Of a stretch of 64,000 bases of DNA, positions 26,124-31,307 are shown piece by piece. The translations under genes and the position numbers were made by a program. The notes beneath the pieces were generated by a model. That model made no database searches and was not told the DNA's origin. It saw only the letters and a program-made list of their open reading frames with translations. The stretch is from Kribbella catacumbae DSM 19601 (lineage in GTDB: Bacteria > Actinomycetota > Actinomycetes > Propionibacteriales > Kribbellaceae): contig NZ_AQUZ01000017.1 in the NCBI RefSeq assembly GCF_000372465.1, positions 62,001 through 126,000 of the forward strand, read 5' to 3'. Within the stretch, counting starts at the first letter, position 1. Every line of letters starts with the position of its first letter.

Positions 26124-28685
26124 TTGTCGGACGCGGATGGCCGAGTTGAGGGACGGCGTGGTTTTGCCGATCTCTTGCTTGACTTGAGGGTCCAGGCAGG
26201 GCTGTCGCAGGAGGAGCTGGCCGACCGGGCGAGGCTCAGCGTGCGGACCATCCGCGAGCTCGAAGCGGGCCGGGTCGCCCGGCCGCGCAAGGACTCCGTC
26301 CGGCTGCTGGCCGAGGGCCTCGGACTGCGCGACGGTGATGCCGGCCGATTCCTGGCCGCCGCCGGGCACGCGAGTGTGCGGCCCGTGATAGCTGTCGCCG
26401 ACCCCGCTCCGACGGGCCTGCGCTGGCGAGGAACCAGGCCGATCCCGGACGGCCTCGTCGGTCGCGACGTCGAGTTGGCGGAGATCGAGAAGCTGCTTCG
26501 GCAGAACCGGCTCGTGACGCTGGTGGGGCCGGGTGGCGTCGGCAAGACCGAGCTCGCCCTGGCCGCCGCCGATCGGGTCTCGTCGGTGGATACGACGGTG
26601 GTGGTCGTCGACCTCACGACGGTGCAGCGCGACGCCGCAGTACCGTCGGCGATCCTTGATGCCTTCGGGACGGCTCCTGGGACCTCGGACCTCGACGACG
26701 TGTTGTCCGGGCGCAAGCCGGGTGATCTGGTGATCGTCGAGGACAACGCCGAGCACGTGCTCGACGGGGTGGCGACCGTGGCCAACCGGATGGTCCGCAC
26801 CTTCCCGGGCATCGGCGTACTGGTGACGTCGCGGATTCCGCTCGGTCTGCCGGATGAGGTCGTACGCCGGGTGCAGGTGCTCGGCGTACCGTCCAATGAC
26901 AAGGATTTCGACGAGATCGCGGCTTCGCCGGCCGTGGAGATGTTCTGCCGGCGGGCGGCGCGGGTTCGGCCTGATTTCTCGCTGACCACTGAGAACGCGG
27001 CGATTGTGGCTCGGCTCTGTCAGCGGCTTGATGGATTGCCTTTGGCGCTTGAGCTCGCGGCGGCGCGAGCCGGGTCGTTGTCGGTGGAGACGATTCTGGC
27101 TGCTCTGGACGACCGGTTCCGGCTGCTGTCGGGGCCGCGGCGGTTCGGGGCTCCGCACCAGCGAACGCTGGCAGACACGATCGCGTGGAGCGTCGATGCG
27201 CTCTCCGACCCCGCGCGACAGCTCCTGTACCGCGCTTCGATGCTGGGGTCGCCCTTCACGCTGGACGCGGTAGTCGGCGTGTGCACGGGTGCGCCTATCG
27301 ATCCGCTGGATGTCCCGATGCTGCTGGCCGAGCTGGTAGACAAGTCGTTGTTGCAGCCGGTACTGGAGTTCGAGCAGCTGTACGGCGCCCGCTACAAGAT
27401 GCTGGAGACGATCCGCGAGCACGCCTACGCGGGGCTGTCCTCGCAGGGCGATGATCTGGTCGAGTTCAAGGATCACACTGTCGCCTGGTGTTCGAAGTAC
27501 GTCGAGAGCCTGGACGGCGCCTGGTCGAGCCCGGACCGCGAGCGGCGCTACCGGGCGGCCAATGCCAACTCGGCGACCTTCGAGGTGGCGCTGGAGCGGG
27601 CGGCGGCGCTGGAGCAATGGGACGACGCTGCGGCGATAGTGCTCGGCTTCCGGATCGCGTGGCAGTACCAGGCCAGCGTGGCCGAGAGCGGGATCCAGTG
27701 GGCGAGCTTGTGTGCTGAGAACGTCCAGGACAAGGAGGTCAGCGGCAGGCTGCTGGCCATCGCGGGCCGGCTGTCCAACCTGACCGGCGACGTCCGGGCC
27801 GCCCGCCGCTACTACGGCGAGGCGCGGACTCTGATCTCACCCTCGTCGGAGATGGGGCTGATGGCTCGTGGCGGCTGGGTGTCGTCCGGGTCGCTACTGC
27901 TGGACACACAGAGCTTGGCGGAGATCCCGGCACTAGTGGCCGACGCACGGTCGCATGGAGACGTGCAGCGGTCTGCGACGGTGCAGGCGATCTGCGGGCT
28001 CGCCCTGGCGCGCTGGGGCCGGCTGCCGGAGGCGAAGGAGCTGCTGCTCGCCTGGGAGGCCGCACTGGTCAACCCGGGCGTCTACCCGGATGAGATCGCC
28101 TACTTGGCGCTCAGCAGGGTCGAGCTGGAGCTGGGGAACCTGGATCAGGCTCGCCGCTGGGCAGAGCTCGCCAGGGGCAGTCAGGCCTCCGACGACCCGG
28201 AGCGGACCAAGGTGGCCGGCTGCCTGGCGATGGTGGAGTTCCAGGCTGGGCATTTCGAGTTGGCTCAGTCGCTGCTCGATGAGGCCGACGCGGACATCCG
28301 TGGGCATCGTGGGTACTTCGACTATCTGGTGATGCTGTACCGGAGCCGGTTGGCCCGGCGTACGGGGGATCTGGAGCAGGCCAGGGCGTCTATCCGGGAC
28401 GCGGTGAGCCGGTTGCTGGTCGAGGGACGCGTCGTCTACCTGCTCGACGTCATGCCTGAGGCTGTGGCTGTGCTGCACGCGTTGGGGGAGCACGAGCAGG
28501 CGGACCAGCTCTGTGGGCAGCTGCTGGCCTGGCAGCGGACCATGGACCCGCCGATGCTGCCGACCGCCTGGGCGGTGCTGCAGGAGTCCTGCGCGAGCGC
28601 TCCGGTGGCCGAGGGGTGGCCGCTGCCTGACCCGGCCGAGGCTGCCCGCCGGCTGGCGGACGACGTACTCGCTGCGCTGTCCTGA
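26124..28685 (+). CDS. XRE-family helix-turn-helix STAND ATPase with TPR-like C-terminus
   Basis: An 853-residue signal-transduction regulator. The TTG start has GGGGTGACG upstream. Residues 14-70 are an XRE-type DNA-binding domain (AGLSQEELADRARLSVRTI). From about residue 108 comes a STAND/NB-ARC-like ATPase: the LVGRDVEL lead-in, Walker A GPGGVGKTE (135-143) and Walker B DLVIVEDN. The remaining 400 residues are alanine- and leucine-rich helical repeats like tetratricopeptide repeats. Such actinobacterial proteins are thought to be ligand- or protein-gated transcription factors. It is a single gene; the structured region downstream (28985-29350) could be its 3' UTR or a separate RNA. Confidence 0.87.
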   Translation: MSDADGRVEGRRGFADLLLDLRVQAGLSQEELADRARLSVRTIRELEAGRVARPRKDSVRLLAEGLGLRDGDAGRFLAAAGHASVRPVIAVADPAPTGLRWRGTRPIPDGLVGRDVELAEIEKLLRQNRLVTLVGPGGVGKTELALAAADRVSSVDTTVVVVDLTTVQRDAAVPSAILDAFGTAPGTSDLDDVLSGRKPGDLVIVEDNAEHVLDGVATVANRMVRTFPGIGVLVTSRIPLGLPDEVVRRVQVLGVPSNDKDFDEIAASPAVEMFCRRAARVRPDFSLTTENAAIVARLCQRLDGLPLALELAAARAGSLSVETILAALDDRFRLLSGPRRFGAPHQRTLADTIAWSVDALSDPARQLLYRASMLGSPFTLDAVVGVCTGAPIDPLDVPMLLAELVDKSLLQPVLEFEQLYGARYKMLETIREHAYAGLSSQGDDLVEFKDHTVAWCSKYVESLDGAWSSPDRERRYRAANANSATFEVALERAAALEQWDDAAAIVLGFRIAWQYQASVAESGIQWASLCAENVQDKEVSGRLLAIAGRLSNLTGDVRAARRYYGEARTLISPSSEMGLMARGGWVSSGSLLLDTQSLAEIPALVADARSHGDVQRSATVQAICGLALARWGRLPEAKELLLAWEAALVNPGVYPDEIAYLALSRVELELGNLDQARRWAELARGSQASDDPERTKVAGCLAMVEFQAGHFELAQSLLDEADADIRGHRGYFDYLVMLYRSRLARRTGDLEQARASIRDAVSRLLVEGRVVYLLDVMPEAVAVLHALGEHEQADQLCGQLLAWQRTMDPPMLPTAWAVLQESCASAPVAEGWPLPDPAEAARRLADDVLAALS

Positions 28686-28735: not shown

Positions 28736-29120
28736 CGGGGCCTGTTTCGTTACGCCGATTCGCGGAAGCTGCCGGGGAACTGCCGGTACTTCTGCCTCGT
28801 CCGGACATGTCTGCCGGAACAAGAATTGCAGCCGTAGGACAGGTTCCACGAAGACAGAGATCTGAGACCGGATTCGAGCCATACGGGCAGGGAATGGGGG
28901 CGGTGACCATGACGAGGCAACCATGGCGCACCGGACTGCCGGGTAGCACTTCGAATCCGGAGCAGGCGACGCGGAGTACATCCGACGGTCGGACGGTGGG
29001 GGCGCCGGACAACTGTCGAGATCTTCGGGGTGCTGCTTCGTGTGGAGCTGTCCTACCTCACACCGGGGGCCGTGCACCGTCAGGGCACGTGACCCGGGGC
29101 GGGGTCCCAGCAGTGACCAG

Positions 29121-29302
29121 GGCACACGACACAGGGGACGAGTGCCGGTCCGGTCGACACGGGAAAGCCGGCGGGTTTGGTCACCCGCCGGTGGGTCGAC
29201 CGCTGGGACCTCCCGGGGGGATCGCGGCGAGCATCACAGGGGACTGCTCACCGCACAGCCGGTACCAAGCCAAGTGAGCTGACACCGAGGGGGAGTCAGC
29301 TC
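29121..29302. ncRNA. Candidate structured RNA: stem-loop cluster with CACAGGGGA loops
   Basis: The 688-base gap 28686-29373 has no convincing gene but dense secondary structure. In order: GGCAC/GTGCC hairpin (29121-29146) with CACAGGGGA in its loop; CCGGCGGGT/ACCCGCCGG (29168-29191), flanked by pairing GGTCGAC/GTCGACC; GAGCA/TGCTC (29229-29249) with CACAGGGGA in its loop; and GAGCTGAC/GTCAGCTC (29276-29302) with loop ACCGAGGGGGA. A larger hairpin at 29306-29349 again carries CACAGGGGA in the loop. On the minus strand the same loops read TCCCCTGTG. It does not match RNase P RNA, tmRNA or SRP RNA as I know them. The strand of transcription is unknown. Confidence 0.45.
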
Positions 29303-29305
29303 TAT

Positions 29306-29349
29306 CGGCGAGGTGGAGGGCCACACAGGGGATGGCCTCCACCTCGCCG
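29306..29349. terminator. Long bidirectional hairpin between the XRE-STAND and PPOX genes
   Basis: Arms 29306-29322 and 29334-29349 pair over 16 bp with one bulged G; the loop contains CACAGGGGA. It lies 25 bases beyond the stop of the minus-strand PPOX gene and could end transcripts from both sides. No clear T-run follows on the plus strand. Confidence 0.6.
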
Positions 29350-29373
29350 AGGCGCTTCCGCGTCTCAGTCGTC

Positions 29374-29880
29374 TCAGCTGAGCAGCGCAGGCTTGTCGAA
29401 CGCGTAGCCGACCATCCAGTGCGGCTGGAGGCGGCAGTAGACGATGTCATCGGCCCAGCTCGACGGTGAACTGCCGTAGTGCGCGACCAGATGACCCTCG
29501 ATCTCGGCGAAATCCGGGTGGTCGGTGGTCAGGAACTCCACCTGGCCGTGGCTGAACACGCCGATCCGCTCACCGTCGACGTACGAGATGCTGGCCGCAG
29601 GTCTGGCCTTCAGTTGCCGTGCCTTGGCCGCCTGACCCGACGTCGTGAACACCCACCGCGCGTGCAGGAAATGCCCGTCGACGGCGCTGATCCGCGGCTC
29701 ACCCTTCGCCGTCACGGTCGCCAGATTGAGCGTGCACATCCCCTGCAGCACCTGGACCAGCTCGGCCGCGGTCAGCCGGCGGTCGTCGGTGATGATGGCG
29801 TGCAGATGCTCCGTGGAGCGCTCGTAGGCCGCCTCGAGCAGCCGCTGCAGTTCCTCGACTTCTTCGCTGGACTCCCTCAT
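29374..29880 (-). CDS. Pyridoxamine 5'-phosphate oxidase-family (PPOX) flavin-binding protein
   Basis: A 168-residue protein from the ATG at 29880. After an N-terminal helix (VEELQRLLEAAYERSTEHLH) it has the split-barrel flavin-binding core: TLNLATVTAKGEPRISAVDG (first strands), HARWVFTTSG, KARQLKARPAASISYVDGE. This is the standard arrangement of PPOX-class F420- or FMN-dependent proteins. The end (CRLQPHWMVGYAFD) places an aromatic-rich strand on the dimer interface. Substrate unknown. It is divergent from degV with about 50 bases between starts, so they may share a control region. Confidence 0.85.
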   Translation of the reverse strand: MRESSEEVEELQRLLEAAYERSTEHLHAIITDDRRLTAAELVQVLQGMCTLNLATVTAKGEPRISAVDGHFLHARWVFTTSGQAAKARQLKARPAASISYVDGERIGVFSHGQVEFLTTDHPDFAEIEGHLVAHYGSSPSSWADDIVYCRLQPHWMVGYAFDKPALLS

Positions 29881-29932
29881 TGGCTGAGTCTGACACCAGG
29901 CGCCGACGAAAACTGTCCGGTAACCTCGCTGC

Positions 29933-30830: not shown

Positions 30831-31307
30831 TGATCATTCGCCCCCTTTTGACCACCACCAGCACCTTGTGCACCGGCCAGGCACCCAACCAAACGACGCC
30901 CACCCTGCTCCCAAAGCCGATCACCTAGAGGGCTACAGCCGGAGTTGGTGATGTTGGGCGGCAGGCCCGGACCTCCGCCACTCACAAACCTCCTGTTTCC
31001 CCTCGGGAGCACGCCTGTGCACGCCTGGCCGGGTGCGATCAGTTGAGGTTTGTGAGTGGCGGCGGTCCGGCCCAACCCGACGACCGCACGCTGAACATCA
31101 CGAACTCCGCCTGTAGTACCAGCCAGGTGGGGAGGGAAATGTCCCAGACCGGGGGCAAGATCCGCCCCGGGTCCCGCGAAAACCTCCCCAACTGCACCCG
31201 CCTCTTGCCAAACCACGCCGGATGGGTCGGACGAGCGCTCTACCCCTCCAGGCGGCCGCTGCGATCACCATGGCTCGGCGCGCGGGTGAAAAGGGGGCGA
31301 ATGATCA
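30831..31307. repeat. 477-bp non-coding fold-back element bounded by 23-bp inverted repeats
   Basis: The outer arms are 30831-30853 (begins TGATCATTCG) and 31285-31307 (ends CGAATGATCA), inverted with one mismatch. They are the same 23-bp units that form the palindrome at 6479-6529. Inside lies a second pair of inverted arms: 30933-30955 with 31094-31116, and 30964-30991 with 31046-31072, together about 50 bp at high identity with a 54-base apex. No gene is readable inside. It fills most of the 620-base gap between degV and comEA. This looks like a small palindromic mobile or structural element (MITE- or REP-like); no transposase is seen and no target-site duplication is obvious. Confidence 0.65.

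Follow-up and report, generated by a model that had tools for sequence, protein, structure and literature searches.

The intergenic element and its neighbours

The window, which is the whole 64-kb stretch of DNA analysed here, comes from a Kribbella soil bacterium and contains an intergenic region bounded by the gene of an XRE/AAA/TPR regulator and a convergent gene for a PNPOx-like protein, followed by DegV. Within this region the motif CACAGGGGA occurs three times on the plus strand (29130-29138, 29235-29243 and 29324-29332), each time in the loop of a hairpin, and there is no other copy in the window. The number expected by chance in the window is 0.63, and three copies were reached in 2 of 100 shuffles, a count that asked only for three copies anywhere in the window and did not demand their placement in hairpin loops within 200 bases. 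Including a fourth hairpin with the related G-rich loop ACCGAGGGGGA (29276-29302), AGGGG is displayed in the loop by four hairpins, the others being 29121-29146, 29224-29254 and 29305-29350. Shuffling the bases of the RNA gave a mean of 0.45 such hairpins, compared with the four observed, and the region folded far better than its shuffled versions on either strand (z = -6.7 on the plus strand and -7.2 on the minus strand). The three identical loops and their G-rich relative had been described in an earlier note on this DNA, and we found them exactly as reported. That note took the cluster for a candidate new structured RNA. The region is structured and matches no Rfam family, but conservation reaches well beyond the four hairpins, which make up the 3′ portion of an element extending from about 28765 to 29350. 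The features of the locus are as follows.

26124..28685, plus strand: gene for a regulator with XRE-family HTH, AAA and TPR domains, directly upstream of the RNA (Pfam, synteny, co-distribution)
28769..28786, plus strand: direct repeat CTGCCGG-N4-CTGCCGG with an 11-base pitch (37-genome alignment)
28835..28840, plus strand: near-invariant TAGGAC/TAGGGC, or TAGGRC (conservation)
28847..29350, plus strand: predicted structured noncoding RNA of about 500 nt (Kribbella homologues, conservation profile)
28965..29060, plus strand: conserved block GGCGACGCGGAGG ... GGTGGGGGCGCCG ... CCGGAGTGCTG, in consensus letters, partly paired (consensus fold)
29063..29097, plus strand: conserved stem-loop ahead of the multibranch core (covariation, helices 1 and 2)
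29098..29214, plus strand: multibranch core with closing helix GGCGGGGTCCCAGC ... GCTGGGACCTCC (covariation, helix 3)
29121..29146, plus strand: G-loop hairpin 1, GGCACACGACACAGGGGACGAGTGCC, where conservation within the RNA is highest
29152..29201, plus strand: long hairpin forming an arm of the multibranch core (covariation, helices 5 and 6)
29224..29254, plus strand: G-loop hairpin of the window's clade; other clades carry a different insert there
29276..29302, plus strand: G-loop hairpin shared by all; its loop is ACCGAGGGGGA here and AACCAGGGGGA in most species
29305..29350, plus strand: terminal hairpin of 18 bp with no T run, where conservation stops
29374..29895, minus strand: gene for a PNPOx-like protein, the convergent neighbour (Pfam, synteny)

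Conservation begins at about 28765 and drops off sharply after 29349. The block at 28765-28800, which holds the CTGCCGG repeat, is conserved at 93-96% in the alignment of 37 genomes. The 11-base pitch is as in SARP or PhoP boxes, and the repeat, lying upstream of the RNA, is a candidate site for an activator. It has three exact copies in the 9.6-Mb genome, and 49 matches with at most one mismatch versus 30 for a reversed control, numbers too weak to be interpreted as a genome-wide regulon. The TAGGRC motif is a candidate -10 element that would place the start of the RNA near 28847, an approximate position; a consensus scan for sigma-70 promoters upstream of the RNA gave none. The 5′ domain, which precedes the block at 28965-29060, is moderately conserved. 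Hairpin 1 lies within the multibranch core, and its CACACGASACAGGGGACGAGTG is fixed in the 37 genomes except for C/G at one position. The hairpin at 29276-29302 matches our hairpin model with an E value of 0.001. The 3′ end was set at the last hairpin, beyond which the sequence is no longer conserved; this hairpin is probably a transcription terminator lacking a T run.

The stop codon of the regulator gene lies about 160 bases upstream of the RNA, and a synteny comparison found the regulator adjoining the RNA upstream at all 37 loci, while the PNPOx-like gene was missing beside it in 4 of the 37 genomes. Regulator homologues were detected in 38 of 38 Kribbella genomes and in none of 109 others (E values up to 1e-60). 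This shared distribution is compatible with a functional regulator-RNA pair but equally with plain synteny within the genus, since genus-wide co-occurrence is what any stable neighbour would be expected to show. In one genome (G034:C1:2473149-2475626) the regulator match was split into two adjacent pieces, covering residues 1-444 and 473-853, with an open frame of 828 residues; about 28 residues are thus deleted internally.

Farther along the window, nested inverted repeats occupy 30831-31307 between DegV and ComEA. The inner element, a palindrome some 190 bases long at roughly 30930-31125, has about 30 or more copies in the genome at up to 95% identity, and it is apparently inserted in a second repeated element with several copies, whose outer arms lie at 30831-30853 and 31285-31307. 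Seven of the eight other Kribbella genomes searched had no match to these repeats and the eighth had two short matches only; they look like lineage-specific MITE-like elements.

Conservation, strand and distribution

Alignment of 37 homologous sequences revealed compensatory changes, in which both sides had changed and still paired, at 18 of the 51 pairs of the core. This was the pattern for which the earlier note had proposed to look among relatives. Core-pair cells were paired in 98.2% of cases, compared with 34-49% when the partner was slid by 1-3 columns, and none of 500 shuffles reached the observed covariation values; these shuffles ignore relatedness and the homologues all come from one genus, so the statistics are overstated and are to be read as strong but not as a probability. 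In the helix pairs common to the folds of both strands, 163 cells held G-U and 24 held A-C. Because a G-U pair on the plus strand would be an A-C mismatch on the minus strand, this asymmetry identifies plus as the functional strand, and consensus energy and covariation were also better for the plus strand. The loops of the RNA are therefore G-rich, and the idea of the earlier note that C-rich loops on the minus strand pair with Shine-Dalgarno sequences is not supported.

A coding function, the objection that the earlier note had itself raised, was considered as well. Many species have a reading frame open from 28909, but indels within 28985-29217 are mostly of 1 base and position-wise substitution rates over 28830-29109 show no codon periodicity, so we consider the region non-coding. 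The Rfam search, which had likewise been suggested, returned no credible match at either gathering or permissive thresholds; all hits were chance ones, to eukaryotic or otherwise unrelated families. A search for tRNA and tmRNA found neither. The covarying helices, the G-U strand bias and the lack of coding signal are those generally expected of structured noncoding RNAs. With sequence comparison supporting its RNA nature, strand, structure, conserved loops and synteny, the element is almost certainly a real plus-strand structured RNA.

The RNA appears to be confined to Kribbella. A DNA search of 58 genomes recovered homologues in 37 of 37 Kribbella genomes (the window's own and 36 others at 71-92% identity), and only chance-like matches of 25 to 40 bases in the rest. 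A covariance model built on 29060-29217 gave one match apiece in 38 of 38 Kribbella genomes. Outside the genus it matched none of 255 genomes from the order and none of 393 others from the class, in searches whose strict filters could have lost very divergent relatives. When the pattern of the invariant hairpin was run against 84,980 species, it hit 21 contigs, all from Kribbella except one labelled Streptomyces sp. SID13031. That contig (NZ_JAAGLV010000017.1) carries the Kribbella RNA and its neighbours, with protein identities of up to 97%, and the record is probably a mislabelled Kribbella. The locus is single copy and has no mobile context, and searches of viral contigs and plasmids did not find the RNA.

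Variation of hairpins and loops among species

Depending on the genome, our scan counted 2-6 hairpins with an AGGGG loop, mostly 3-4, compared with about 0.4-0.9 in shuffles; the low counts are partly due to the strictness of the scan, and the loop of hairpin 1 is present in all genomes. The variants CACAGGGGA, GACAGGGGA, AACGAGGGGA, AACCAGGGGGA and ACCGAGGGGGA occur on different stems, and on new stems such as GTTGAC/GTCGAC, GCCGGC/GCCGGC and GAGCC/GGCTC the loop remains ACNAGGGG(G)A. Hairpins have been gained and lost at different places and on different stems, always with a ACNAGGGG(G)A or GGAGGGGU loop. For example, the window's clade has a G-loop hairpin ahead of the one at 29276, another clade has one behind it, and two other loci (L011 and L012) bear further G-loop hairpins. 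Most species, among them the most divergent one (L038), have GGAGGGG(T) as their terminal loop. In the clade L002-L005 this loop has changed from GGAGGGGT to CACAGGGGA, the form seen in the window and in its close relatives. Pair counts from our hairpin alignment (A2) are illustrative only, as its members were selected for having stems.

Because hairpins are gained and lost and loops are converted towards one motif, this pattern suggests that the loops are interchangeable binding sites for one partner. The proposal of the earlier note that a binding site is presented repeatedly fits the recurrence of one conserved loop on unrelated stems. Its description of the stems as variable needs a qualification, in that the same loop does sit on unrelated stems but the stem of hairpin 1 is nearly invariant across the genus.

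A single-hairpin model, searched against the rest of Kribbella and against 158 further genomes from the order, matched isolated sites only and revealed no second array. One perfect hairpin, CCAGTC-TCACAGGGGAC-GACTGG, whose loop is identical to that of the 29224 hairpin in the window, was seen in the window's own genome (C75:35034-35056) and, identical despite differing flanks, in a close relative (L123). By eye this site looks like part of a coding sequence, perhaps for a Rieske-type protein, that specifies a variable linker.

Interpretation and comparison with known RNAs

When a large structured RNA repeats interchangeable loops, it usually serves a global regulator as decoy or scaffold. On the strength of its architecture, the Kribbella RNA could well be multivalent in this sense, acting as decoy or scaffold for a partner that binds its loops and is not CsrA, a reading that we favour but hold tentatively. 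Its gene would be free-standing and noncoding, about 500 nt long and transcribed from the plus strand in all Kribbella, with an RNA in which the conserved 5′ part and multibranch scaffold carry the 3′ hairpin array and each loop exposes AGGGG, as ACNAGGGG(G)A or GGAGGGGU. The array would offer interchangeable docking sites, and the RNA would titrate or assemble multiple molecules of a single partner, probably a protein that binds RNA, following the logic of CsrB/RsmZ with CsrA but with a different protein. Its expression would probably be controlled through the conserved CTGCCGG repeat, at which the upstream XRE/AAA/TPR regulator may be the controller. A more far-reaching version, which we regard as rather unlikely at present, is that of a genus-specific, CsrB-like global regulator whose AGGGG array titrates a novel actinobacterial loop-binding protein under the control of the XRE/AAA/TPR (STAND-type) regulator. 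Two points weigh against a decoy: conserved G-rich loops could equally seed pairing with C-rich RNA, and the analogy to CsrB is drawn without its known protein, CsrA being absent from the genome.

The main rival is accordingly that the AGGGG loops are base-pairing seeds, either acting in trans on C-rich stretches (CCCCU) of mRNAs or forming a sponge for a C-rich small RNA. In the consensus the loops are unpaired, and they are rich in G and almost invariant; a full complement is computed to bind well (-13 to -21 kcal/mol). We nevertheless consider such pairing doubtful: a search of 20 relatives, 13 of them Kribbella, turned up no 6C RNA, the neighbouring genes contain neither of the exact complements, TCCCCTGT and TCCCCCTGG, on their plus (sense) strand, and the variation of the N before AGGGG and of the A/U after it suits recognition by a protein at least as well. 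Pairing could also be directed at the anti-Shine-Dalgarno end of 16S rRNA, so that the RNA would act on ribosomes; AGGGGG and GGAGGGG reach -9.4 and -10.7 kcal/mol with CCUCCU, compared with -11.6 for a good Shine-Dalgarno sequence. Ribosome binding becomes less likely, and in our judgement very improbable, because the best-conserved loop, ACACAGGGGA, which is fixed in all genomes, pairs weakly (-6.5), and the AGGAGG variant that would give -10.3 is never seen there. Several loops have four or more G each and might join as a G-quadruplex, but several species have only three such hairpins and a quadruplex would not need the fixed ACN before the G run or the A after it, which leaves this arrangement extremely unlikely.

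Other alternatives concern the molecule itself. The element is on the same strand as the regulator gene, always directly downstream of it and about 160 bases from its stop codon, and the two occur in the same genomes, as would be the case if it were the structured 3′ untranslated end of the regulator mRNA, serving stability or giving rise to a 3′-UTR-derived RNA, with no independent gene. We judge this improbable, as the conserved upstream block with the direct repeat and TAGGRC resembles a promoter of its own and the stretch just after the regulator stop codon is less conserved. An RNA from the minus strand with C-rich loops, as the earlier note had read it, would fold well too, but the excess of G-U over A-C cells and the better consensus energy and covariation of the plus strand make it scarcely credible. 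The hairpins are also palindromic as DNA and might serve as a recombination or protein-binding site; an excess of G-U over A-C is what RNA should show and double-stranded DNA should not, and with a single copy and no mobile context we attach minimal weight to a function at the DNA level.

The conserved loop provides, as a single hairpin, a ready bait for the partner, which would make the question of what exerts post-transcriptional control in these bacteria directly testable, in a genome that is missing CsrA, the best-known protein bound by such RNAs.

Our literature search found no paper describing this RNA, and the one relevant mention of a Kribbella small RNA was that of Ms1, as presented in PMC9130861. 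Ms1 is there a 6S-like intergenic RNA of about 300 nt, found across actinobacteria including Kribbella and defined by synteny with a HAD hydrolase. The Kribbella RNA is likewise an intergenic actinobacterial RNA, but its neighbours are the XRE/AAA/TPR regulator, PNPOx and DegV, so the defining synteny of Ms1 is not found at this locus and we rejected identity with Ms1; the passages on Ms1 consulted there mention no array of G-loops. The 6C RNA (RF01066) is another actinobacterial RNA with two or more hairpins sharing a homopolymer-rich loop, but its loops are C-rich and it spans about 75 positions. RF01066 had no match on either strand of the locus or in 20 relatives including 13 Kribbella, and a sponge for 6C was rejected on this ground.

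The closest resemblance in design is to CsrB/CsrC and RsmY/RsmZ, the sponges of CsrA/RsmA, which are free-standing RNAs with several hairpins of varying number, whose differing stems carry one shared G-rich loop motif containing GGA. Three to six hairpins with a common loop are found in most Kribbella genomes, and both ACNAGGGG(G)A and GGAGGGG contain GGA. The loop consensus of CsrB/RsmZ is ANGGA, whereas most Kribbella loops read AGGGGA or AGGGGGA, and the Kribbella RNA differs further in its length of about 500 nt with a multibranch core, its restriction to Kribbella and the lack of an Rfam match. It is not a Csr RNA or a CsrA sponge, because CsrA/RsmA (PF02599) is absent from the window's genome, as judged by a search in which the control genomes were positive. 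What the Kribbella RNA would share with CsrB is the decoy logic towards a protein partner, as outlined for CsrB and CsrA in PMC5027483 and PMC4005645. Judged by its sequence and those of its homologues, it is a new RNA family with a decoy-like architecture.
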